A DNA stretch of 21,876 bases, taken from IMG/VR virus record IMGVR_UViG_3300027779_000188, positions 1 to 21,876 of that record; one strand, written 5' to 3'. This DNA is from a virus. Of the stretch, positions 8,313 to 21,876 are shown piece by piece. Position 1 is the stretch's first letter, and each line of letters begins with the position of its first letter. Made by a program: the position numbers and the translations under genes. Below the pieces are notes generated by a model. It was given only the letters and a program-made list of their open reading frames with translations. It made no database searches and was not told the origin of the DNA.

Positions 8313-8325
8313 GACCAATCACCCT

Positions 8326-8403
8326 ACCTAGTCCCACACTGGCACTACCTAGTCCCCACCTGACACTAGGGTAGTCCCACACAGACACTTACCTAGTCCC
8401 ACC
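8326..8403 (+). repeat. Four iteron-like direct repeats
   Basis: The core TAGTCCC(C)AC begins at 8329, 8350, 8372 and 8394, a spacing of 21, 22 and 22 bases (two helical turns). Three copies have ACC before the core, and the first three are followed by a (T/A)G(G/A)CACT half. This regular phasing is typical of iterons bound by a replication initiator. Confidence 0.65.
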
Positions 8404-8442
8404 GTGGGTCTCTAACATACAAGTAAAAATACAAATATAACT

Positions 8443-8818: not shown

Positions 8819-8833
8819 TCGGGTTCAACCCGA
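8819..8833 (+). repeat. Palindrome copy 1 (TCGGGTTCAACCCGA)
   Basis: Perfect 7-base arms around a central C. It is intergenic, about 115 bases upstream of the first plus-strand gene. It lacks the outer G/C pair that most copies have. Confidence 0.85.
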
Positions 8834-8947
8834 CTAGGGCTAGTTGCGAGGGCATTACGACTCAAAAATTAAAATTAGGTATCATAGTAGCATGTTCTGG
8901 AGGAATCCAAGGGCATCAAACCATTTAATTAAAAAGGAAGATTTCAA

Positions 8948-9703
8948 ATGACTAATTTAACGAATGAGAAAGTTGCTGCGTATGCTCAGGTTGCTACAGG
9001 CCAGACCACTATTGATGCTTTGAAAAAAGACATTAAAAGAACTGGTTCTGAGATTTATGACACCATGGCCACTATGCTTTTAGGGTTTTGTACTAATAAG
9101 AATCTATTGACTGATGCCGATATCGACATGTTAACGCATGCGATACAGGTTGAATACAAGCGATCTTTTGGTACTAAATCCGAAGCAAAAGGCAACTTAG
9201 GAATGGAAAACGCTAGTCAGATTGCACGCGACTGGGCCACCATTGCTAAGGGTTGCATAAAAGCTGGGGCGAATGATTTTGACTTATGGGTACACACCCC
9301 ATCGGAAATGAATTATCACCGCGACTTGTACCTGAGTTATAAAACGCTCGGGCACGATGAAACCGAGCACTTGATTGCATCTGATGAAGGCCATAAGGCT
9401 GGCACTAAATCAGGAGTGCGTAATACTTTAGCCAAAATCAATGACCTCGATATTCGAGAAGAATTGATCAAAGTTAAATTGTTACCCGCTGTAAAGCCTC
9501 TACCTGAAGGCCTGATCATGGTCTCTGAACAAGAGCATATTATGCTCGATGTTATCAGAACGTACCTTGACGGATCTTCTGAGGAGGACGCATCACAATG
9601 GATGGTGATTCAAACTGGTCACTTTTCGGAGATGCTACTCTCCAAAGGTACTGCCGAGGTTCAGGCACAACCTAAGAAGAAAGGCAAAAAGAAAGCAGCT
9701 TAA
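8948..9703 (+). CDS. First gene of the early block, unknown protein with Lys-rich tail
   Basis: 251 residues. AAGGAAG lies 7 bases before the ATG, a good ribosome-binding site. The protein is mainly helical and soluble: residues 20-75 look like a helical bundle, and the middle has YKTLGHDETEHLIASDEGHKAG. It ends in a short basic tail, KKKGKKKAA, that may bind nucleic acid. No family recognised. It is the promoter-proximal gene beside the candidate origin and has its own terminator just downstream, so it appears to be an independent transcription unit. A replication or host-takeover role is possible from position only. Confidence 0.8.
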   Translation: MTNLTNEKVAAYAQVATGQTTIDALKKDIKRTGSEIYDTMATMLLGFCTNKNLLTDADIDMLTHAIQVEYKRSFGTKSEAKGNLGMENASQIARDWATIAKGCIKAGANDFDLWVHTPSEMNYHRDLYLSYKTLGHDETEHLIASDEGHKAGTKSGVRNTLAKINDLDIREELIKVKLLPAVKPLPEGLIMVSEQEHIMLDVIRTYLDGSSEEDASQWMVIQTGHFSEMLLSKGTAEVQAQPKKKGKKKAA

Positions 9704-9712
9704 TTATCTGAA

Positions 9713-9739
9713 AGGATAGCCCCGAAAGGGGCTTTTCCT
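9713..9739 (+). terminator. Intrinsic terminator after the first early gene
   Basis: AGCCCC, loop GAAA, GGGGCT, then TTTTCC. AGGA and TCCT can extend the stem outward. It begins nine bases after the stop codon of the 251-residue gene. Confidence 0.8.
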
Positions 9740-9769
9740 ATGTCTCAAATTTAATATTCAAGTAAAGCC

Positions 9770-9809
9770 TTTACTAAAGCTTGTCCTCATTGGGCTGGCC
9801 TTTAGTAAA
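9770..9809. repeat. 10-base inverted repeat with 20-base loop
   Basis: TTTACTAAAG (9770-9779) is the exact reverse complement of 9800-9809. The arms are A+T-rich and no T-run follows, so a second terminator is unlikely. An operator or RNA structure ahead of the next small genes is possible. A TATAAC sequence at 9834-9839 downstream could be a -10 element, without a good -35. Confidence 0.5.
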
Positions 9810-9883
9810 TACTTTCGGAGTTTAGCTAAGTATTTATAACGTGTTGATTTATCTATCAATTATTTCAGCATTATTTTATCAAG

Positions 9884-9898
9884 TCGGGTTCAACCCGA
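9884..9898 (+). repeat. Palindrome copy 2 (TCGGGTTCAACCCGA)
   Basis: Perfect copy, preceded by ATCAAG. It lies 13 bases upstream of the 50-residue gene, just before that gene's ribosome-binding site. Confidence 0.85.
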
Positions 9899-9911
9899 GA
9901 TTGGAGAGTGT

Positions 9912-10064
9912 ATGGATAAATTCTATCTATCAGTCCAGAAACTGGAGCGTGACCTATCGGTTATGCGTCCAGAGTTTGGCATGTCTGGAGTTTATGCAAG
10001 GTCGGGTTCAACCCGAGTTCTCTTGTCTATCGGTACGAACTCAGACCTATCGAGGAGTATGTAA
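9912..10064 (+). CDS. 50-residue hypothetical protein containing a palindrome copy
   Basis: ATG at 9912 follows GGAGAGTGT, a sound ribosome-binding site. The protein starts MDKFYLSVQKLERDLSV and ends TNSDLSRSM. Palindrome copy 3 lies inside and encodes SGSTR. The stop overlaps the next start (TAATG), typical of coupled phage genes. No family recognised. The site and coupling support it despite its length. Confidence 0.6.
   Translation: MDKFYLSVQKLERDLSVMRPEFGMSGVYARSGSTRVLLSIGTNSDLSRSM
10002..10016 (+). repeat. Palindrome copy 3 (TCGGGTTCAACCCGA), inside a gene
   Basis: Perfect copy within the 50-residue gene, read as TCG GGT TCA ACC CGA (SGSTR). Confidence 0.85.
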
Positions 10065-10165
10065 TGGATGATCTATCATTCGCAGCATTCAGTTCGTTAG
10101 TAATCATTGGAGGATATGCCTTATGGCTATCTATCTATATTTCTATCAAGGATAAGTCATGTTAA
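10064..10165 (+). CDS. 33-residue predicted membrane protein
   Basis: The ATG overlaps the previous stop (TAATG), and GAGGAG lies about 7 bases upstream. The protein is MDDLSFAAFSSLVIIGGYAL followed by WLSIYISIKDKSC, with one hydrophobic segment (about residues 7-27) and a positive C-terminal end. Single-span micro-proteins of this kind are common in early phage regions and often act on host membrane proteins; the target here is unknown. Confidence 0.55.
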   Translation: MDDLSFAAFSSLVIIGGYALWLSIYISIKDKSC

Positions 10166-10326
10166 ATATCTATCAAGAAAATGGGTATGCGAATCGCTTC
10201 GCCTATCTTAAAGGTCTGGCAGTAAATCATGGGATAGATCTTCAAGTCGTGTTGGTCTGTGCAGAAATGCTTGGCCCAGAAGAAGACTTCGATGCCCTCG
10301 TTACGCATTTAGAGGGCGGCCTATGA
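10159..10326 (+). CDS. 55-residue hypothetical protein
   Basis: The ATG at 10159 overlaps the end of the membrane micro-protein by 7 bases, and the TGA overlaps the next ATG (ATGA). AAGGA lies about 10 bases upstream. The protein starts MLNIYQENGYANRFAYLKGL and ends in an acidic helix (GPEEDFDALVTHLEGGL). No family recognised. Confidence 0.6.
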   Translation: MLNIYQENGYANRFAYLKGLAVNHGIDLQVVLVCAEMLGPEEDFDALVTHLEGGL

Positions 10327-10853
10327 TGAATCAAACCATGAGGATTGCCCTGCAAAAAGCGGGTATAAATTCTCTATCAAGTCGGGTTCAACCCGACTAC
10401 TCCCCTCTCCCCTATCAAGTAGGTAGTCATGACGGGGAGACCTATGAAGACTATGACCCTGACCATATCCTGATTAGAGCAGAGTTGCTCGGATGGGAGA
10501 CACCTTTTGTGTGTTGGATACCATCTAATGCTGTGCCTCCCAAGGTAGTGCAGCAGGTGCGTCCTACCATGCGTTACCACTATGAGGATGGTACGGAGCG
10601 TATCGGCAAGCGCAAGGCAACCTTTGCCAAGTCGATGCAGCAATCTATGAAGCTGAAGGAGGCTATGAAGAGACCTGTATGGCCTTCACCTAAAGAAAGT
10701 AAACATAGGATAGGTGTCGGTAAGGGAGGATTGTATGCCACCCCATCGGGTAAGCCGCCTGTAAAGAAAGATACGCCGCCTATAAATATCTATCGCCTAG
10801 CTAGACTAGGACGTGAGGCACAAGAGCGTATGGATAAACGTAATGAGTCGTAA
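10323..10853 (+). CDS. Basic hypothetical protein with embedded palindrome
   Basis: 176 residues, translationally coupled to the preceding gene (ATGATGA), with GAGGG a few bases upstream. The N-terminal 30 residues include palindrome copy 4, read as SRVQPD. A folded part follows (about 45-100, with HILIRAELLGWETPFVCW). The C-terminal half is basic and Pro/Lys-rich (KRPVWPSPKESKHRIGVGKG) and probably disordered, so nucleic-acid binding is possible. No family recognised. Confidence 0.75.
   Translation: MMNQTMRIALQKAGINSLSSRVQPDYSPLPYQVGSHDGETYEDYDPDHILIRAELLGWETPFVCWIPSNAVPPKVVQQVRPTMRYHYEDGTERIGKRKATFAKSMQQSMKLKEAMKRPVWPSPKESKHRIGVGKGGLYATPSGKPPVKKDTPPINIYRLARLGREAQERMDKRNES
10382..10396 (+). 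repeat. Palindrome copy 4 (TCGGGTTCAACCCGA), inside a gene
   Basis: Perfect copy preceded by CTATCAAG. It is read in a different frame from copy 3 (AGT CGG GTT CAA CCC GAC, SRVQPD). Confidence 0.85.
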
Positions 10854-10987
10854 GGGGTTTGTTGTTACTTCCCCCTATGGCAGTTACCAATGGCCGTTTT
10901 TTGCCATCGGGTAGCAAAGAGAGTGTGAGTGGGGTATTTGAGGGGCTGGCATGTGTGTTTGCCTAGTACCTAGAATACTCCTAATGT

Positions 10988-11016
10988 CCCGCAAAGTCAA
11001 TGGTGACGCGGGTTTT
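10988..11016 (+). terminator. Probable intrinsic terminator
   Basis: CCCGC, a three-A bulge, GTCA, loop ATGG, TGAC, GCGGG, then TTTT. It lies in the gap after the 176-residue gene and just before the first leader cassette, so it probably closes the upstream operon. Confidence 0.6.
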
Positions 11017-11026
11017 AGTGTAGAAG

Positions 11027-11041
11027 TCGGGTTGAACCCGA
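11027..11041 (+). repeat. Palindrome copy 5 (TCGGGTTGAACCCGA) with leader
   Basis: Perfect copy with central G. It continues as ACATTAAATAAGGAAATTGT up to the start region of the 61-residue gene, whose ATG is at 11064. Confidence 0.9.
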
Positions 11042-11063
11042 CATTAAATAAGGAAATTGTATT

Positions 11064-11249
11064 ATGAAAGTTACTAAATATTGCGGTGAAATAAAAGCAA
11101 TGGAGCAAGTTATAAATTGGGTTTCTCCTATGGTTATGGAGAAGGCTAGATACTTAAAAGACAGCGTAGAGCTTGCAGATTTAATGCGAGCGAAGCGTGA
11201 CCTGTCAGATTTAATTGCGAAGCGTGATGCGTTACTTGTAACGGGTTGA
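11064..11249 (+). CDS. 61-residue helical hypothetical protein
   Basis: AAGGAAATTGTATT before the ATG supplies the ribosome-binding site. The protein is almost wholly helical, and its C-terminal half has an internal near-repeat (LMRAKRDLSDLIAKRDALL) suggesting a short coiled coil. Its stop codon lies inside palindrome copy 6. No family recognised. Confidence 0.65.
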   Translation: MKVTKYCGEIKAMEQVINWVSPMVMEKARYLKDSVELADLMRAKRDLSDLIAKRDALLVTG

Positions 11250-11255
11250 ACCCAA
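11241..11255 (+). repeat. Palindrome copy 6 (degenerate) with leader
   Basis: ACGGGTTGAACCCAA differs from the consensus at two outer positions. The TGA stop of the 61-residue gene is inside it. The downstream leader AATAAGGAAATTGTATG is intact and starts the next gene. Confidence 0.8.
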
Positions 11256-11274
11256 CATTGAATAAGGAAATTGT

Positions 11275-11625
11275 ATGAAGATTTTAAATCTTACTCAGCA
11301 CCCTGCATCTGAAGATCAGATATCAGTAGGAGTGTATGACTTGGAAGGTGAAGACCTTGCCAAGATGAAACAACTATTAACGTTCAAGTCTTTACCCTCT
11401 CAACAGGAGATAGACAAAAGAGCGTGGGGTTTAGCACGCCTCACTAAGAAGGTTGAGTACGCCATGGTAGGCGGAGCACCATACCTAATGGGGCCATTAC
11501 AAAGGGTGCTGAAACAAAATAACACCACAGCATTGTTCGCTTACTCTGAGCGAGTAAGTGTTGAAGATCCATCAACAGGTATTAAGACCAGCGTGTTTAA
11601 GCACCTTGGTTTTGTATCTTCTTAA
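11275..11625 (+). CDS. Conserved phage protein with NLTQHPAS N-terminus
   Basis: 116 residues. It begins MKILNLTQHPASEDQISVGV, then LLTFKSLPSQQEID, YAMVGGAPYLMGPL, TALFAYSERVSVED and a C-terminal FKHLGFV. This order (a first strand ending NLTQH, an 'MvGGAPyLm' turn, an 'AYSeRvSvE' strand and a final 'FkHlGFV' strand) is one I recognise from a family of similar length in phages and bacteria, without a function I can name with confidence. It looks like a small alpha/beta, Rossmann-like fold. The start is fixed by the shared leader AAGGAAATTGT, and the stop overlaps the next cassette. Confidence 0.75.
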   Translation: MKILNLTQHPASEDQISVGVYDLEGEDLAKMKQLLTFKSLPSQQEIDKRAWGLARLTKKVEYAMVGGAPYLMGPLQRVLKQNNTTALFAYSERVSVEDPSTGIKTSVFKHLGFVSS

Positions 11626-11626
11626 G

Positions 11627-11641
11627 TCGGGTTGAACCCGA
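11627..11641 (+). repeat. Palindrome copy 7 (TCGGGTTGAACCCGA) with leader
   Basis: Perfect copy starting two bases after the preceding stop codon. It continues as ACATTGAATGAGGAAATTGT to the ATG at 11661. Confidence 0.9.
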
Positions 11642-11660
11642 CATTGAATGAGGAAATTGT

Positions 11661-11954
11661 ATGAAAACTTATTATATTTCTCTAGCCGCCTACATTGTGG
11701 TCGAGGTGAAAGCTGAAACGCAGGAAGCCGCGCATCAAAGCGCAGGAGATCTGCTTATAGATAGTGTTAATGATCTGGAAGATCTGGACTGCTCTTTAGT
11801 TAGGATCTTAGATGTTCAGAATAAGGAAGAGCTAGATTTTGTGAACTCTTTAGATCTGCCTGATGACCCTGTAGCCCAGCTTATTATGTTGGATATACAT
11901 AAAACTCAAAGCTCTGTTCTCATCATTAGGGATGATGAGTCACTACTACATTGA
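11661..11954 (+). CDS. 97-residue acidic hypothetical protein
   Basis: It starts from the shared leader (GAGGAAATTGT). Residues 1-35 (MKTYYISLAAYIVVEVKAET, then a helix) read as a strand-strand-helix unit. The rest is acidic (DSVNDLEDLDCSLVRILDV). No family recognised. Its stop TGA lies in the next leader (CATTGAATAGGAAATTCT). Confidence 0.7.
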   Translation: MKTYYISLAAYIVVEVKAETQEAAHQSAGDLLIDSVNDLEDLDCSLVRILDVQNKEELDFVNSLDLPDDPVAQLIMLDIHKTQSSVLIIRDDESLLH

Positions 11955-11966
11955 ATAGGAAATTCT
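11949..11966 (+). repeat. Leader cassette without palindrome
   Basis: CATTGAATAGGAAATTCT matches the tail of the leaders behind palindromes 5-7, but the palindrome is absent. It still provides the AGGA ribosome-binding site for the 30-residue gene. Confidence 0.65.
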
Positions 11967-12059
11967 ATGGGAATCTTTTTAGATAGTTCGGCAACTATGT
12001 TTGTAACGTTCTTCGGTCTTGCCGTATTTTTTATGATCGTAGATAGCATGAGGAAATAA
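11967..12059 (+). CDS. 30-residue predicted membrane micro-protein
   Basis: MGIFLDSSATMFVTFFGLAV followed by FFMIVDSMRK: one hydrophobic segment of about 18 residues with a short basic end. The ribosome-binding site comes from the shared leader. It ends two bases before the next gene. Unknown function. Confidence 0.5.
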   Translation: MGIFLDSSATMFVTFFGLAVFFMIVDSMRK

Positions 12060-12061
12060 TC

Positions 12062-12442
12062 ATGGCAGTTAAAGTATTCTTTGAAAACAAGAAACACAGT
12101 GAACTAGTTGCTGTGTTTGACAATGAGGATTTATACAATGTATGTGTAAAACCTCTTGAAAAGTTAGCCAAGGAATGGCGTATGGAAATTAGCGAAAGTG
12201 TCCACTCTGAGGACATGGACATTAAACCAGATAAGTTTAGGGAAGCAGTGATTAAAGCAGCTAAGGATAGCCTTGACAATGAGTGCCTAAATGGAGGAGA
12301 TGTTCACTTATTCTATGATAAAAAAATTGATAGGTACATGAGCATAGCTGCACCTGCGGATTCACTTGATGAATTCAAAGGTATGGATGCTGGTAGTATC
12401 TTCCGAAAGTTATGGGAGAGTAGTCAGTTAAATAAAATCTAA
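12062..12442 (+). CDS. Hypothetical protein, 126 residues
   Basis: GAGGAAATAATC precedes the ATG. The protein has an N-terminal strand pair (MAVKVFFENKKHSELVAVFD), a central helical region and a C-terminal segment EFKGMDAGSIFRKLWES. That segment shares a 17-base DNA match with the 'YKGMDADSIYNM' segment of the VWA protein at 19.6 kb. No family recognised. It is part of the run of closely spaced small genes. Confidence 0.7.
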   Translation: MAVKVFFENKKHSELVAVFDNEDLYNVCVKPLEKLAKEWRMEISESVHSEDMDIKPDKFREAVIKAAKDSLDNECLNGGDVHLFYDKKIDRYMSIAAPADSLDEFKGMDAGSIFRKLWESSQLNKI

Positions 12443-12454
12443 TGGGAGTCGGTG

Positions 12455-12682
12455 ATGCTAAAAATAAACAATCACTTTTTTTCAGAAGCCAAGTATCACC
12501 TTGGTGAAAGAAAACACAGTAGCAAGTGCTCAGCAATAGGCGCTTACATAAAGAACCAAGCAGCCCGTGAACAGAGGAGAAATGCTAAGGCAACCCTTCA
12601 ATGGGAAATGTCCTGCATTGAAGACTCTGAAACAAATTTTGATAACGAGTTACGTTATCCTTTTATGAAGGAGGTTTTATGA
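12455..12682 (+). CDS. Hypothetical protein, 75 residues
   Basis: I choose ATG 12455, which has GGGAG 7 bases upstream; GTG 12452 is also in frame. The protein is basic, with MLKINNHFFSEAKYHLGERK and QAAREQRRNAKATLQWEM. The stop overlaps the next ATG (ATGA). No family recognised. Confidence 0.65.
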   Translation: MLKINNHFFSEAKYHLGERKHSSKCSAIGAYIKNQAAREQRRNAKATLQWEMSCIEDSETNFDNELRYPFMKEVL

Positions 12683-13044
12683 CCGAAGAAGATAGATGTA
12701 TAAAGTGCAGTACCCTTATTGAAGGGGGTGGAACATGGGGTTACTGCCCCGATTGTTGGGATGATGATCTAATAGTCATGACCCCATTCAAGACTGTAGT
12801 TATTGGGAGCTATTGGTTGAGTGCAATCTTCAACGATGACACGACTGCCCTAGATGACGGGCAAGAAGCCATGCTAGAAGAATGGATGAAGCCCTACCCC
12901 CAAGATCGTTTCACTATGGAGTACGTCACCATCGACCATGATGTTTACGGCAACATAGTTAAAGAGATGGAGATTGAGTTCTCTCAATGCCAGATCTCTA
13001 GTCAGTGGGCTGACTGTTGCACCTTAAATATCTACGAACATTAA
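12679..13044 (+). CDS. Zinc-ribbon protein, DUF6926-like C-terminus
   Basis: 121 residues. Cysteine pairs C7-C10 (CIKC) and C23-C26 (CPDC) form a probable N-terminal zinc ribbon. The C-terminal part, EIEFSQCQISSQWADCCTLN, resembles the end of a small phage family (DUF6926 by recollection, moderate certainty). Coupled to the preceding gene by an ATGA overlap, with AAGGAGG upstream. Such proteins may bind nucleic acid or another protein; no activity is known. Confidence 0.7.
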   Translation: MTEEDRCIKCSTLIEGGGTWGYCPDCWDDDLIVMTPFKTVVIGSYWLSAIFNDDTTALDDGQEAMLEEWMKPYPQDRFTMEYVTIDHDVYGNIVKEMEIEFSQCQISSQWADCCTLNIYEH

Positions 13045-13062
13045 CCAAGTAGGAGAAAGATT

Positions 13063-13557
13063 ATGATCAAGAACGTACCAACTGTCATCTATGATATAGA
13101 TGGCACGTTAGCAGACATTGAGCACCGAAGAATTTTTGTTACGGGAAAAAAGAAAGACTTTAATGCTTTCAATAATGCTATGTCTAAGGATGTTATCAAT
13201 GTCCCAATAGTTAAGCTTCACACGATGTGCCATAACGCAGGGTATCAAATACTCTACTGCACTGGCCGAATGGAGGAGCATAGGGCATTGACCATTGAGT
13301 TTTTGAAAATGGTACATGAAGAGAGTGGGATTCTCGATCGATATACTTTATGTCCTTTTTCTCCACAACTTATTATGCGTCCCGATGAACGTAGATCTGA
13401 CCCCGATTGGGAAGTCAAACAGGACATGCTTCATGAAATTCTGAAGACACTGGACAAGGAGAACATATTGTTCACAGTGGATGATCGGCAGAAGGTTGTT
13501 GATATGTGGAGAGCCAATGGCCTCACATGTTTACAGGTAGCCGAAGGTAACTTTTGA
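13063..13557 (+). CDS. Polynucleotide 3'-phosphatase (HAD fold, PseT C-terminal-like)
   Basis: 164 residues. HAD motif I is DIDGTLAD (nucleophile D11, acid/base D13), motif II CTGR (T67), motif III K119 within RSDPDWEVKQ, and motif IV DDRQKVVDMW (D140/D141). The 'MR...D.DWEVK' segment and 'DDR..VVdMW' are characteristic of the phosphatase half of T4-type polynucleotide kinase/phosphatase. The N-terminal kinase P-loop is absent, so this should remove 3'-phosphates from nicked RNA or DNA without phosphorylating 5' ends. AGGAG lies 7 bases before the start. All catalytic residues are present. Confidence 0.85.
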   Translation: MIKNVPTVIYDIDGTLADIEHRRIFVTGKKKDFNAFNNAMSKDVINVPIVKLHTMCHNAGYQILYCTGRMEEHRALTIEFLKMVHEESGILDRYTLCPFSPQLIMRPDERRSDPDWEVKQDMLHEILKTLDKENILFTVDDRQKVVDMWRANGLTCLQVAEGNF

Positions 13558-13564
13558 ATACAAG

Positions 13565-13579
13565 TCAGGTTCAACCCGA
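13565..13579 (+). repeat. Palindrome copy 8 (one mismatch)
   Basis: TCAGGTTCAACCCGA, with G changed to A at position 3. It starts seven bases after the phosphatase stop and lies upstream of the next gene's ribosome-binding site. Confidence 0.8.
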
Positions 13580-13600
13580 CTTTGTATGGGAGAAAATAAT

Positions 13601-13858
13601 ATGAAGTACACTAACTACAGGTCAAATGTTAGTGGCCCAAACACTGCGGAGAGTGACCTTGAGCCAAAGGTTTGGCATGAGGTTCACTACATGTACTGTG
13701 ATGTTAGTTGCACTGTAATGGTCTGGGCTACAGACCCGATGGATGCAATCTCCATCATGCGAGAACAACACCGCAAAGAATCACCCATAAGCCAGCAAGA
13801 TGCTGGTTTTTTTATACCTAAAAGAAAAGAGGACAGTAACTATGATGATATTAACTAA
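13601..13858 (+). CDS. Hypothetical protein, 85 residues, with terminator-like hairpin in its 3' end
   Basis: I choose ATG 13601, which has GGGAG 8 bases upstream; an ATG at 13586 would place that site inside the gene. The protein starts MKYTNYRSNVSGPNTAESDL, then has HEVHYMYCDVSCTVMVWA and ATDPMDAISIMREQ, a strand pair followed by a helix. The hairpin at 13792-13813 falls in codons for QQDAGFFI. It overlaps the next gene by 17 bases. No family recognised. Confidence 0.65.
   Translation: MKYTNYRSNVSGPNTAESDLEPKVWHEVHYMYCDVSCTVMVWATDPMDAISIMREQHRKESPISQQDAGFFIPKRKEDSNYDDIN
13792..13813 (+). terminator. Terminator-like hairpin inside coding sequence
   Basis: CCAGCA, loop AGA, TGCTGG, then seven T. 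It has all the sequence features of an intrinsic terminator, yet lies within the 85-residue gene, about 30 bases upstream of the DUF2958 start. Translating ribosomes could prevent or permit folding, so it may act as an attenuator. Confidence 0.65.
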
Positions 13859-14180
13859 GCCGATCTTGAAGCAACTCAAGGCAAACCATGCCCGTCAGCA
13901 AGAAGATGATGTGTCAGATAGCACGATGCCTGTCGTTAAGCTCTTTGGAGGAGCATGTACATGGCTTCTATCAGAGCTGGACGATAATGGCGATGCCTTC
14001 GGACTTTGTGACCTTGGACTTGGGTTTCCCGAACTAGGTTATGTGCAGATGGACGAACTCATGGAACGAAAATTCCCTCCCTTCGGTCTACCGATTGAAC
14101 GTGACTTGCACTTCAAAGCAGATAAAACGCTCACTGAATATGCAGATGAAGCCAGTGAAAACGGAAGAATTATAGCTTAA
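13842..14180 (+). CDS. DUF2958 domain protein
   Basis: 112 residues from ATG 13842 (AGAGG about 9 bases upstream; a second ATG follows directly). The pattern LTKPILKQLKANHARQQED, then VVKLFGGACTWLLSELDDNG, FGLCDLGLGFPELGYVQMDEL and GLPIERDLHFKA matches DUF2958, a full-length single-domain family found on plasmids, phages and mobile elements, often near antirestriction genes. Biochemical function is unknown. The acidic surface is notable (Asp/Glu-rich), but I do not infer DNA mimicry from this alone. Confidence 0.85.
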   Translation: MMILTKPILKQLKANHARQQEDDVSDSTMPVVKLFGGACTWLLSELDDNGDAFGLCDLGLGFPELGYVQMDELMERKFPPFGLPIERDLHFKADKTLTEYADEASENGRIIA

Positions 14181-14197
14181 CTAATCGGAGAGTAACT

Positions 14198-14419
14198 ATG
14201 TTTGATAAGCAACCCAACCAAGAGCAAAGCATGAGGATTCAATCTATCGTCAATCGCTTTGTCCGATCAGCCAGAAACAGCAGGAAAGAAACAGCATGGC
14301 AGGATTCTGAGCGTAAAGGAATGGATGCGGTCACTAAGTATTGCCACGAACAAGGACTTGCTTTGCTTGGTGATCACATGATCAGAGCATCAACTCAATT
14401 AAGTAATTACGGAGAGTAA
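14198..14419 (+). CDS. Hypothetical protein, 73 residues
   Basis: Starts MFDKQPNQEQSMRIQSIVNR and is basic and helical. The leader CGGAGAGTAACTATG gives the ribosome-binding site and is repeated exactly before the next gene. No family recognised. Confidence 0.65.
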   Translation: MFDKQPNQEQSMRIQSIVNRFVRSARNSRKETAWQDSERKGMDAVTKYCHEQGLALLGDHMIRASTQLSNYGE

Positions 14420-14421
14420 CT

Positions 14422-14544
14422 ATGACCGCTACAATTTTTATTGCAGGAGTTGTCACAGGATATGTAATCCATGTCTTGTTAGCGAGGTGGGCAAGACGAT
14501 TGCGTGCCCAGAGTTTGATAATGAAATCAACATGGAGGGGTTAA
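14422..14544 (+). CDS. 40-residue predicted membrane protein
   Basis: MTATIFIAGVVTGYVIHVLL followed by ARWARRLRAQSLIMKSTWRG: one hydrophobic N-terminal segment, then a strongly basic tail, so the C-terminus is probably cytoplasmic. The ribosome-binding site GGAG comes from the repeated CGGAGAGTAACTATG leader. Unknown function. Confidence 0.55.
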   Translation: MTATIFIAGVVTGYVIHVLLARWARRLRAQSLIMKSTWRG

Positions 14545-14545
14545 C

Positions 14546-14767
14546 TTGGATAAGTTATCTGTATCACCTAAGTTTGATGAAACAAAAACCATCAGTGAGT
14601 CCTTGGCTTGCTGCAACATGATGATAGGTACGATTACAGACACGCATGACCAAGCTGCTATGCGGCTTGTGGTCAAGTGTCTATATAGTTCAATGGCTGT
14701 TGCCATTAATAAACTAATAGATGACAAGGCGCATGAGTTATGCGACCTTGAAAGGAGTAACTCATGA
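14546..14767 (+). CDS. Hypothetical protein, 73 residues, TTG start
   Basis: The start is TTG at 14546 with a strong GGAGGGG about 5 bases upstream; the first internal ATG is far inside. The protein is helical, MDKLSVSPKFDETKTISESL, and ends CDLERSNS. The stop overlaps the next ATG (ATGA). No family recognised. Confidence 0.6.
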   Translation: MDKLSVSPKFDETKTISESLACCNMMIGTITDTHDQAAMRLVVKCLYSSMAVAINKLIDDKAHELCDLERSNS

Positions 14768-15123
14768 TAAGTTATTGGGATAAGTTCAGTCAGGTAGTAG
14801 TGGCTCAGACCTTGAGAGAGGAAGAAGGCCGCGACTACCCTGATGAGGAGAGGATTCATCACCTGTCTTACTTAATGATGGTGAAATCTACAATCGCACA
14901 TGTAGATTACGTTCTGTTAGTTAATGAACGTGATGTAGATGAACACGGAGTTGCATCCGAGATTCATTGGTCATCGGATACCCTGACAGACGTTTCCGCA
15001 TCTGAAAAACCTTTGACCTCATGGGTGAGGGATGAGGACTTGATCATAGATAAACGAGGAATGGTTGGAGCATTTCACAACCATGGAACAACTGATGAAC
15101 CCTCATGGGGTTCTCACTCATAG
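14764..15123 (+). CDS. Acidic hypothetical protein, 119 residues
   Basis: GGAG lies 7 bases before the start, which overlaps the previous stop. The protein is acidic and rich in His: an N-terminal helix (KFSQVVVAQTLREEEGRDYP), then a folded core, then a C-terminal region with FHNHGTTDEPSWGSHS. No family recognised. Confidence 0.65.
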   Translation: MISYWDKFSQVVVAQTLREEEGRDYPDEERIHHLSYLMMVKSTIAHVDYVLLVNERDVDEHGVASEIHWSSDTLTDVSASEKPLTSWVRDEDLIIDKRGMVGAFHNHGTTDEPSWGSHS

Positions 15124-15131
15124 GAGGTCAA

Positions 15132-15440
15132 ATGTCTACTAATTCTATAACCTTTAAAAGCAAGATACCAAGCAGTTGGCACTTTGGTTCTGGTAAAAAT
15201 TCCATGACCAAGGTAAGAAGAATCAGACCAAACACTGCTGTGTACTGGTCAACAGTTGAGCTAAGTATTCTTATCCAGCTGCGTGCACTTGGCCTTAGTT
15301 ATAAAGACTGCGGCATCCAGATGAATAGAACACAAGGGTCTTGTGTGTCTGCTGTGGATAGCAACAACCTTTACGCTGAGGTTGATAAGAAACGTAAAGC
15401 TTTAATCAAGGAGGCTTTAAATGAAGACAAGTCGGGTTGA
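15132..15440 (+). CDS. Helix-turn-helix protein, putative regulator
   Basis: 102 residues from ATG 15132, chosen for the TAGGAGGTCAA immediately upstream; an in-frame ATG at 15105 lies inside the previous gene. Residues about 38-75 (YWSTVELSILIQLRALGLSYKDCGIQMNRT, then a helix; shown here as separate parts YWSTVELSILIQLRALG and LSYKDCGIQMNRT) resemble Myb- or GcrA-like helix-turn-helix domains that scan '...L..L...G.S...I...L.RT...V'. The remainder is basic. Its stop TGA lies inside palindrome copy 9. It is the only clear DNA-binding regulator candidate in the palindrome zone. Confidence 0.65.
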   Translation: MSTNSITFKSKIPSSWHFGSGKNSMTKVRRIRPNTAVYWSTVELSILIQLRALGLSYKDCGIQMNRTQGSCVSAVDSNNLYAEVDKKRKALIKEALNEDKSG

Positions 15441-15600
15441 ACCCGAGTTCAAAGAACTAAGCCTCGATCAGTCGGGGCTTTTTATTGCGTGTAATACAGA
15501 CAAGTATTATACCCCATCTCATATCGTGCTTTTCATAAGGGGTACGATTTCTAATGCCAGTACCGAAGAGCTTATCGTGTATATGGCAAGGAGTTTTTAA
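15421..15600 (+). CDS. 59-residue protein containing a palindrome and a terminator-like hairpin
   Basis: ATG 15421 has a near-perfect AAGGAGG six bases upstream and overlaps the end of the helix-turn-helix gene by 20 bases. The protein starts MKTSRVEPEFKELSLDQSGL and continues through FIACNTDKYYTPSHIVLFIR to MARSF. The stop overlaps the next start (TAATG). Palindrome copy 9 encodes SRVEPE, and the hairpin at 15459-15484 falls in codons for LSLDQSGLF. No family recognised, but the ribosome-binding site and coupling argue it is real. Confidence 0.6.
   Translation: MKTSRVEPEFKELSLDQSGLFIACNTDKYYTPSHIVLFIRGTISNASTEELIVYMARSF
15432..15446 (+). repeat. Palindrome copy 9 (TCGGGTTGAACCCGA) over a stop codon and inside a gene
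   Basis: Perfect copy. It contains the TGA of the helix-turn-helix gene and is coding in the overlapping 59-residue gene. It is the last copy seen in the window. Confidence 0.85.
15459..15484 (+). terminator. Terminator-like hairpin inside the 59-residue gene
   Basis: AAGCCTCGA, loop TCAG, TCGGGGCTT, then TTTATT: a 9-base-pair stem with one G-T pair. It lies 19 bases after the helix-turn-helix stop, a typical terminator position, but within the 59-residue frame. A GTTC-AAA-GAAC inverted repeat precedes it. Confidence 0.65.
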
Positions 15601-19270: not shown

Positions 19271-20521
19271 ATGCAAATGACAGCGGAAGATAAAGTAAGA
19301 AAGGCTAGGACTCAGTTAGTTTTAGATGAACCATTCTTTGGTTCGTTAGCTTTGAAGCTAAAGATTCTAGAAGATCAATCGTGCAGTACAGCATGGGTAG
19401 ATGGGACTACCCTTGGATATAACCCTGACTTTATTAATGACCTACCCTACAAACATTTAGTGGGGCTAATTGCACATGAGGTGATGCACTGTGTAGGTTG
19501 CCATCATGCTAGGCGTGGAGATAGAGATCATGGACGATGGAATGAGGCTGCTGATCATGCCATCAATCATATCCTTCATGATGCTGGCTTTGAGTTACCC
19601 GAAGGTGGACTCATGGATGATCAGTACAAAGGTATGGATGCTGACTCAATCTATAACATGATGCCAACTCCACCTCCTCCTCCACCTAAACCTCAAGGTG
19701 GCTCAGGCTCATGCTCAGGCTCAGAAGGTGATGGTGATCAGGATGTCCCCCCAGCTCCAGAGCTGGACGATAATGAGGGTCAGCCAGATAGTACGAATGG
19801 TAAGGGGGGTAACTACGGGGGGTGTGGAGAGTTCCGCGATGCTCCTTCCGAACTTGGTGGTCAAGCTTCCCCTGCTGAGTTAAAGGAGAAGGAAGAAGAT
19901 TGGAAGGTGGCTGCAACACAGGCCGCCCAAGTTGCCAAGGCCATGGGTAATTTAGCAGGGAGTATAGAGAGATTAGTTCTTGATACTATAAAACCAAAGG
20001 TTGATTGGAAAGCAGTGCTTCAAAGATTCATGACTTCCTTTGCCAAGAATGATTTCTCATGGAAGAGACCCAACCGAAGGTTCCTTGCTGATGATCTTAT
20101 CCTACCCTCACTACACAGTGAAACGATTGATGATGTAGTCATTGGCGTAGACACTTCTTGTTCCATTGGGCAAGAAGAGATGGACGTATTTAGTGCCGAG
20201 GTTAATGGGGTGCTTCAAGCGTACGATGTGACAGTGCATGTTGTCTATTGTGACACCCGTATAAATCACACCGATACCTACACTTCACCTGATGATCTAC
20301 CCATTAAGCTTTCGCCTTATGGTGGAGGTGGTACTAGCTTTGACCCTGTGTTTGATTGGGCCAATGACCTTGTATACAAGGGTACAGATATAAGCTGCCT
20401 TATCTATCTCACTGATCTCGAATGCTATATGCCACCGCAACCTGATTACCCTGTGCTGTGGGCATGTACGACTGATCTGGTAGCAGATTGGGGCGAGACT
20501 TTAAAAATTCAAATGAACTAG
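19271..20521 (+). CDS. Metallopeptidase-like / VWA-like protein (DUF2201 type)
   Basis: 416 residues. Residues 66-100 hold an IAHEVMHCVGCHHARRG motif (HExxH, H69-H73, then His pair 78-79) and NEAADHAIN, typical of the putative metallopeptidase domain of DUF2201 proteins. Residues about 135-200 form a Pro/Gly/Ser/Asp-rich linker. The C-terminal VWA-like domain has a MIDAS: DTSCS (D294, S296, S298), GGGTS (T355) and YLTDLE (D382). All metal-binding positions are present. It is the expected partner of the MoxR ATPase. Start has AGGAG about 8 bases upstream. Proteolytic activity is not shown in this family. Confidence 0.85.
   Translation: MQMTAEDKVRKARTQLVLDEPFFGSLALKLKILEDQSCSTAWVDGTTLGYNPDFINDLPYKHLVGLIAHEVMHCVGCHHARRGDRDHGRWNEAADHAINHILHDAGFELPEGGLMDDQYKGMDADSIYNMMPTPPPPPPKPQGGSGSCSGSEGDGDQDVPPAPELDDNEGQPDSTNGKGGNYGGCGEFRDAPSELGGQASPAELKEKEEDWKVAATQAAQVAKAMGNLAGSIERLVLDTIKPKVDWKAVLQRFMTSFAKNDFSWKRPNRRFLADDLILPSLHSETIDDVVIGVDTSCSIGQEEMDVFSAEVNGVLQAYDVTVHVVYCDTRINHTDTYTSPDDLPIKLSPYGGGGTSFDPVFDWANDLVYKGTDISCLIYLTDLECYMPPQPDYPVLWACTTDLVADWGETLKIQMN
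20479..20502 (+). repeat. 24-base direct repeat, copy A
   Basis: Identical to 21396-21419. Here it encodes VADWGET at the C-terminus of the VWA protein, where a 'GE' ending is usual for the family. Confidence 0.85.
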
Positions 20522-21201: not shown

Positions 21202-21876
21202 ATGAGAGCTAACCCAAAGTACTACCACCCCGAAAACCTTGACGGACTTAGTGATGTAGCTAAGGAGTTGGGTGTAAAATTCTTTAAAGAGTTTATGACC
21301 TCATACAAGAACATGAAGGATAATGAAGCATCAGACCGTTATTATGATACTGATTTAATCAATTTTTTATTAGGTCAGGAAGAGATCACAAATATGGTAG
21401 CAGATTGGGGCGAGACTTTCATTAGTGGGTTTACTCCGATTCAGTCTAAGAGTTTGCTATCAATGAGATCCACTAGGCTGATACTAGAGGAGTTTGCTCT
21501 GGAAGATCGTAATGAAGTTCTGCGACTTAGAGGGACGATTGATCGTATGCAAAAACATTTTAAAGATGGGCATATCAACCAAATGCTTGGAGAAACACCA
21601 AACATAAGAGATAGGCAAGTTAAAAGAACGATGAAGGTGATTGAAGACTTGTTTAGAGTTTCATCACTCAGAACTCCACAGAACGGAGATATTAGGGTAG
21701 AAAGTTTAAAGTTAGTTCCCTCTAACCAATGGGACGATGTGAAAGCAGACAGCAGAAGTTATGAATCTTATGATACTTTAGATCAAAAATTAGAGTTAGC
21801 ATTGCCATTTGATTTTTTAAATAAGATTGTCAAGAATGACCTTAATAATTTTCGAGATAGGTTTGTGCTAGATATA
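21202..21876 (+). CDS. Unknown protein, partial (runs off right edge)
   Basis: ATG 21202 follows AGGAGAAGTAT. The frame is open for 225 codons to the window edge. Starts MRANPKYYHPENLDGLSDVA, then helices, and VADWGET (residues 67-73) from the 24-base repeat. Later parts look helical and charged (IDRMQKHFKDGHINQML, RQVKRTMKVIEDLFRV). No family recognised. Likely the last known member of the AAA/VWA operon in this window. Confidence 0.7.
   Translation, partial: MRANPKYYHPENLDGLSDVAKELGVKFFKEFMTSYKNMKDNEASDRYYDTDLINFLLGQEEITNMVADWGETFISGFTPIQSKSLLSMRSTRLILEEFALEDRNEVLRLRGTIDRMQKHFKDGHINQMLGETPNIRDRQVKRTMKVIEDLFRVSSLRTPQNGDIRVESLKLVPSNQWDDVKADSRSYESYDTLDQKLELALPFDFLNKIVKNDLNNFRDRFVLDI
21396..21419 (+). 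repeat. 24-base direct repeat, copy B
   Basis: Exact match to 20479-20502 in the same reading frame (VADWGET), but inside an otherwise dissimilar protein. Confidence 0.85.

Follow-up and report, generated by a model that had tools for sequence, protein, structure and literature searches.

The DNA examined here (21,876 nucleotides, referred to throughout at its full length as the window) is an IMG/VR virus contig and belongs to a tailed phage. Its left part is transcribed leftward and encodes terminase, portal and major head protein, and the rightward-transcribed right part is the early region, composed mostly of small genes without known function together with those for polynucleotide kinase, for a MoxR-type ATPase and for a partner protein. 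Terminase relatives are present in IMG/VR, most of them at 76–99% identity, and those extending as far as the gene array described below are G001 (L005) and G002 (L006); the array is reached by three genomes (window, G001 and G002), of which two end inside it. G012 (73.6 kb) and G016 (66.5 kb), long contigs of the sister clade, each encode a tyrosine integrase and small proteins resembling, by eye, lambda-type HTH regulators, on account of which the phage group is probably temperate. A megablast comparison of the whole window with annotated phages returned zero matches.

Several other features of these genomes deserve record. A 28-bp direct repeat (96% identical) occupies 20475–20502 and 21392–21419 of the window at a spacing of 917 bp, and four tandem repeats of 21–22 bp (CTACCTAGTCCCACACTGRCACT) lie at 8324–8411, in the gap that separates the late operon from the divergent early one. 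The tandem repeats are also kept in G001 and G002, G016 carries different short repeats (TGCTGGACAGGT) at a comparable place, and the 8324–8411 repeats are possibly an origin or control region. In G012 a single open reading frame of 4641 codons (34230–48155; L037:14230–19998 plus L038:2–8152) encodes, in this order, a part resembling the N-terminus of the N4 virion RNA polymerase, a helicase and a DarB-like antirestriction region, and part of it has a PDB match to an internal virion protein (9sfn).

Within the early region, three consecutive genes are headed by one arrangement, a 15-bp palindrome followed by the leader ACATTRAATRAGGAAATTGT and a start codon (11027–11066, 11241–11277 and 11627–11663; Table 1), and the leader is matched three times in the window against 0.00 expected. 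An initial annotation made from the letters of this DNA had described palindrome, leader and ATG before three successive genes and a leader alone before a fourth, and the cassettes are indeed present before 11064, 11275 and 11661, as is the slightly shortened solitary leader before the ATG at 11967. The array thus stands as described, with two corrections in its details: the second palindrome is degenerate, and three extra bases accompany the first leader. The same annotation had placed the stop codons of preceding genes in or against the cassettes, and this is where the TGA of g61, the TAA of g116 and the TGA at 11952–11954 are found. Searches of Pfam and PHROGs gave nothing reliable on the functions of the cargo genes; g116 has one relative among phage-database entries, in Rhodothermus phage RM378, and its predicted model, of modest quality (pLDDT 69), had no convincing match in a fold search. 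No known RNA family was found between 8000 and 16000.

Table 1. Palindromes, leaders and genes of the early region (window coordinates)
Feature	Coordinates	Strand	Remarks
Palindrome	8819..8833	.	TCGGGTTCAACCCGA; 5' region of g251, the first early gene; G020 crossover point
Palindrome	9884..9898	.	13 bp upstream of the start codon (ATG) of 50-aa gene 9912-10064
Palindrome	10002..10016	.	Within the 50-aa gene 9912-10064
Palindrome	10382..10396	.	Within gene 10323-10853, encoding SRVQPD; G001 similarity starts at 10378
Palindrome, cassette a	11027..11041	.	Heads cassette
Leader with ribosome-binding site, cassette a	11042..11060	+	CATTAAATAAGGAAATTGT; three extra bases before ATG (GTATT-ATG)
g61, 61-aa orphan gene	11064..11249	+	TGA stop within second palindrome
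Palindrome, cassette b	11241..11255	.	ACGGGTTGAACCCAA; degenerate, 2 mismatches; contains g61 stop
Leader, cassette b	11256..11274	+	
g116, 116-aa gene	11275..11625	+	TAA stop abuts third palindrome; 88% identical in G002
Palindrome, cassette c	11627..11641	.	Heads cassette
Leader, cassette c	11642..11660	+	
g97, 97-aa orphan gene	11661..11954	+	TGA stop (11952-11954) lies in leader d
Leader d, without palindrome	11949..11966	+	CATTGAATAGGAAATTCT; one base shorter
30-aa open reading frame after leader d	11967..12059	+	By eye
g126	12062..12442	+	Upstream of kinase without palindrome; in G001/G002 after kinase and palindrome
Polynucleotide kinase	13063..13557	+	Kinase-palindrome junction common to G001 and G002
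Palindrome	13565..13579	.	TCAGGTTCAACCCGA; 1 mismatch; 3' of kinase; next gene unlike that in relatives
g90, 90-aa orphan gene	13586..13858	+	Behind kinase palindrome
Palindrome	15432..15446	.	Holds stop of gene 15105-15440; then intrinsic terminator 15459-15480

The palindrome itself, TCGGGTTSAACCCGA (S = C or G), occurs in the window in seven exact and two imperfect copies (1–2 mismatches), and at a tolerance of three mismatches or fewer these nine matches compare with 0.35 expected, a number reached in none of 100 shuffled sequences. Every copy lies within the early region (8819–15446) and the late genes have none. Some copies sit within genes or distant from any start codon, and those at 9884, 10002 and 10382 are kept at fixed positions in every relative that covers them. 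The gene that ends in the last copy (15105–15440) encodes a 111-aa protein with a stretch that by eye resembles a Myb/GcrA-type HTH, and it had no match in Pfam. Bacterial genomes yielded 53 TerL-like loci of prophage relatives, the best at 59% identity, and no repeated palindrome of such form was found within the stretches fetched. Contigs L050, L051, L053 and L054, with one palindrome each, were discarded as relatives, being without similarity to the window region, and so was L190, likewise with one palindrome and without similarity to G016; these occurrences are chance-like.

Recombination takes place at the palindrome-leader modules, as can be deciphered from a comparison of the three genomes. 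An upstream block ending at window position 11026 is 99–100% identical over its last 76–77 bp in the window, G001 and G002, and in all three the palindrome comes after it, together with a similar leader; the gene that comes next is g61 in the window, a gene beginning MPDD in G001 and g116 in G002. The last of these has a module on either side of it in both the window and G002, occupying the second slot in the former and the first in the latter. Similarly, a palindrome comes after the kinase in each of the three genomes, and behind that palindrome stands g90 in the window and g126 in the other two. Different genes behind shared palindrome-leader modules are the outcome that the initial annotation had named as support for cassette shuffling, and the counter-case of an unchanged gene order with diverged leaders was seen in none of the relatives. 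G016 has three palindrome-leader genes, and for two of them the corresponding stretch lies outside the G012 contig, so that their absence from it is uninformative.

In quantitative terms, 13 of 20 block ends, which derive from three pairwise comparisons and are not independent, coincide with a module in one or both of the genomes compared, where random positions would give 3.1 (0 of 20,000 trials). When a hand-made list of distinct exchange edges is instead set against all gene boundaries, five of 13 of which carry a module, 8 of 13 edges lie at modules (P about 0.08); with these few genomes, edges at modules are thus not in significant excess of what ordinary gene boundaries would give. About 5 of 13 edges lie off the modules, those away from them including 10143/10161, 10324 and, for g251 in G001 and G002, the edge on either side. 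The proposal that gene cargo can be swapped at short conserved junctions is consequently upheld in part, by the different genes at shared modules and by a crossover inside a palindrome, and qualified by the edges that fall elsewhere.

That crossover is preserved in a natural chimera, G020, which is of window type up to 8820 and of G001 type from 8821, so that its left switch falls inside the palindrome at 8819–8833; it reverts to window type near 9660, within the end of g251 and clear of any palindrome. As the right flank of the 8819 site differs too in G001 and G002, where the site is exactly reverse-complemented, a crossover at the palindrome explains the reversal equally well as an exact inversion of the element, and the latter was not retained. 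The alleles of g251 (8948–9703 in the window) are 52–92% identical among relatives and the neighbouring DNA is much more alike, a contrast that is a sign of repeated allele replacement. The predicted model of g251 (pLDDT 60) was too poor for use.

The manner in which the palindrome varies bears on whether it is recognised as DNA or as RNA. Transcribed, it could fold into a stem-loop ahead of the ribosome-binding site and affect the stability, processing or translation of the mRNA: the stem lies on the transcribed strand immediately 5' of the leader, and good copies fold to a 6–7 bp stem with a 3-nt loop that leaves the ribosome-binding site open. However, in an alignment of 37 sites from seven contigs, which are not independent of one another, positions 2, 4–7, 9–12 and 15 are invariant, and the symmetry continues through loop positions 7 and 9, which are unpairable in such a hairpin and yet always T and A. 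The centre is C in 27 sites and G in 10, never A or T, and at the 8819 site the sole difference between the window and G003 is C or G at the centre, the sequence immediately to either side being nearly the same. Deviations at position 3 (A) and position 13 (mostly T) mirror each other, broken pairs of the A.C kind are roughly as frequent as G.U, and folding z-scores span from -2.7 to 0. As an RNA hairpin leaves both the symmetry at positions 7 and 9 and the equivalence of C and G unexplained, a symmetric DNA site is favoured, an RNA element is in our judgment unlikely, and the palindrome looks, from its pattern of substitution, as if it were read as double-stranded DNA.

The sister clade carries a palindrome of its own. 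In G016 a different sequence, TCCGGATSATCCGGA, is present in eight copies, some with one end base changed, three of which stand directly upstream of GGAGAA and a start codon; the palindrome of G012 is TCCGGCTSAGCCGGA plus near forms, and the form TCSGGNTSANCCSGA is common to the palindromes of both clades. Such a concerted change of all copies between clades is what is expected of regulator-operator coevolution, the alternative being the spread of a changed palindrome by gene conversion. As a separate observation, several adjacent genes in the early region of G012 (65001–73555, minus strand) share the pre-start sequence GGGGGATGT, without a palindrome.

Taken together, we consider the palindrome to be a putative operator-like site for a two-fold symmetric DNA-binding regulator, fused to a leader and serving secondarily as homology for cassette exchange, a reading to which a probability of roughly 0.55 is assigned. 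The confinement of the sites to the early region and the second palindrome of like form in the sister clade both support the involvement of a regulator. A dimeric regulator would bind the palindrome and, seated between or inside the early rightward genes, could control or road-block early transcription. Sites in the accessory zone are joined to a short ribosome-binding leader, and each small gene arrives there as a unit of palindrome, leader and reading frame. Since this module of roughly 35 bp is repeated within and between related phages, homologous recombination at it, presumably carried out by a general recombinase, inserts, deletes and replaces single genes. Sigma-70-like promoters in the window numbered 15 against 17.6 in shuffled sequences, with none standing out at the modules, and the sole promoter-like overlap at the cassettes is a weak 9/12 match at cassette a. 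An operator of the autoregulated CI type was considered and is unsupported, because the surroundings of the HTH regulator genes, which are divergently arranged in G012 and G016, contain no palindrome of such kind.

The initial annotation had read the array as modular cargo exchangeable at short conserved junctions; for the palindromes themselves, a protein-binding site explains the copies inside genes, the copy before a terminator and the strict symmetry better than an element made for shuffling does. In its purest form the shuffling idea holds that the palindromes are recombination seams without any regulatory role, which owe their spread solely to the ribosome-binding site they carry and to the help they give to moving genes, in the manner of the boundary-sequence idea. 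The different genes behind one module and the chimera junction within a palindrome fit it, but it leaves unexplained the two-fold symmetry, the sites inside genes, the three sites fixed in all covering relatives and the genome-wide switch to another palindrome in the sister clade; we accord it a rather slim chance.

Very improbable are early promoters of the N4 type, in which hairpins extruded from supercoiled DNA would be read by a virion RNA polymerase to provide a start for each small gene. A 6-bp stem with a 3-base loop upstream of the leader does recall N4 promoters (PMC4496689), and a giant internal protein of G012 and G001 resembles the virion RNA polymerase family phrog_2206 over profile positions 225–639 of 3406; yet the likeness is confined to that N-terminal stretch, searches of Pfam, PHROGs and PDB sequences recovered no catalytic part (the genome in the window being incomplete), and the palindrome is also present within genes and before a terminator. 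Scarcely probable is the bolder proposition of a phage-borne platform for gene cassettes, in which a recombinase or an enzyme that processes cruciforms would act on the symmetric palindrome itself, one 35-bp element thereby joining regulation to the insertion, loss and reordering of single genes at dedicated sites. Integron-like, site-specific cassette recombination on a folded palindrome is barely credible: the cassette arrangement, the C/G flips at the centre, which match an invertible core, and the reversed 8819 site with its differing right flank would suit it, but there is no recombinase gene beside the array and no Phage_integrase match in the incomplete contig of the window (G012 and G016 hold ordinary phage integrases), the right crossover of G020 at about 9660 is away from palindromes, and plain homologous recombination is enough.

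It has long been asked how phages swap small accessory genes while the neighbours stay intact, and boundary sequences that can be recognised have rarely been found. In these genomes the seams carry a defined 15-bp element, the relatives offer a direct before-and-after comparison, and one natural recombinant places its crossover inside the element; the repeats thus have the look of regulatory sites that phages use for gene exchange. With one palindrome type in each of two sister clades, it furthermore becomes testable whether a regulator has changed jointly with its many sites.

With reference to known systems, the closest in layout are the SAS and ESAS elements of cluster K mycobacteriophages, whose inverted-repeat consensus differs among subclusters and which are suspected DNA-binding sites (PMC3203893). 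As there, a short repeat lies immediately before the starts of accessory non-structural genes, an inverted repeat lies upstream and preceding stops may overlap; the window likewise confines its sites to the non-structural half (8819–15446) and has three leader-start cassettes, although some sites are not at starts. The SAS 13-mer is nonetheless asymmetric (GGGATAGGAGCCC) and has no match in the window at two or fewer mismatches, while ESAS arms measure 17 bp with a spacer of 4–13 bp in most sites, unlike the compact 15-bp palindrome that also occurs within genes. A further difference is that gene exchange at the element was examined here.

The SPBRE, a 15-bp repeat bound by the SPbeta master repressor MrpR (PMC10516654), is similar as a 15-bp motif repeated across a temperate phage genome, but it stands in promoter regions of a Bacillus prophage, whereas the palindromes of the window are without a recognised promoter. 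In cluster A mycobacteriophages, stoperators are repressor sites across intergenic spaces with a sequence that varies by clade (PMC3029335, PMC9283540). They are 13 bp long, asymmetric and bound in one orientation, in contrast to the symmetric site with its C or G centre, and the L5 stoperator consensus is absent from the window. Conserved boundary sequences, proposed for phage mosaicism and discussed in PMC3029335, are alike in being short common sequences at module borders that serve homologous recombination, and differ from the single symmetric element with many copies per genome seen here.

Stem-loop repeats between accessory genes, with gene shuffling between copies, are the common ground with PeSLs. 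These promoter early stem-loops, reportedly described by Arbiol in 2010 and by Comeau in 2014, consist of an early promoter and a terminator stem-loop. The cassettes of the window show no early promoter for each element, and intrinsic terminators were sought and rejected at 11027, 11241 and 11627, which have no U tract, clear terminators being present elsewhere, e.g. at 15459. PeSLs are cited in PMC4503421 as mediating modular shuffling in T4-like phages. As the element fails a defining feature of each, it is not assigned to SAS, stoperators or PeSLs; by analogy, it would appear to behave most like an ESAS or SPBRE blended with exchange of the PeSL type.
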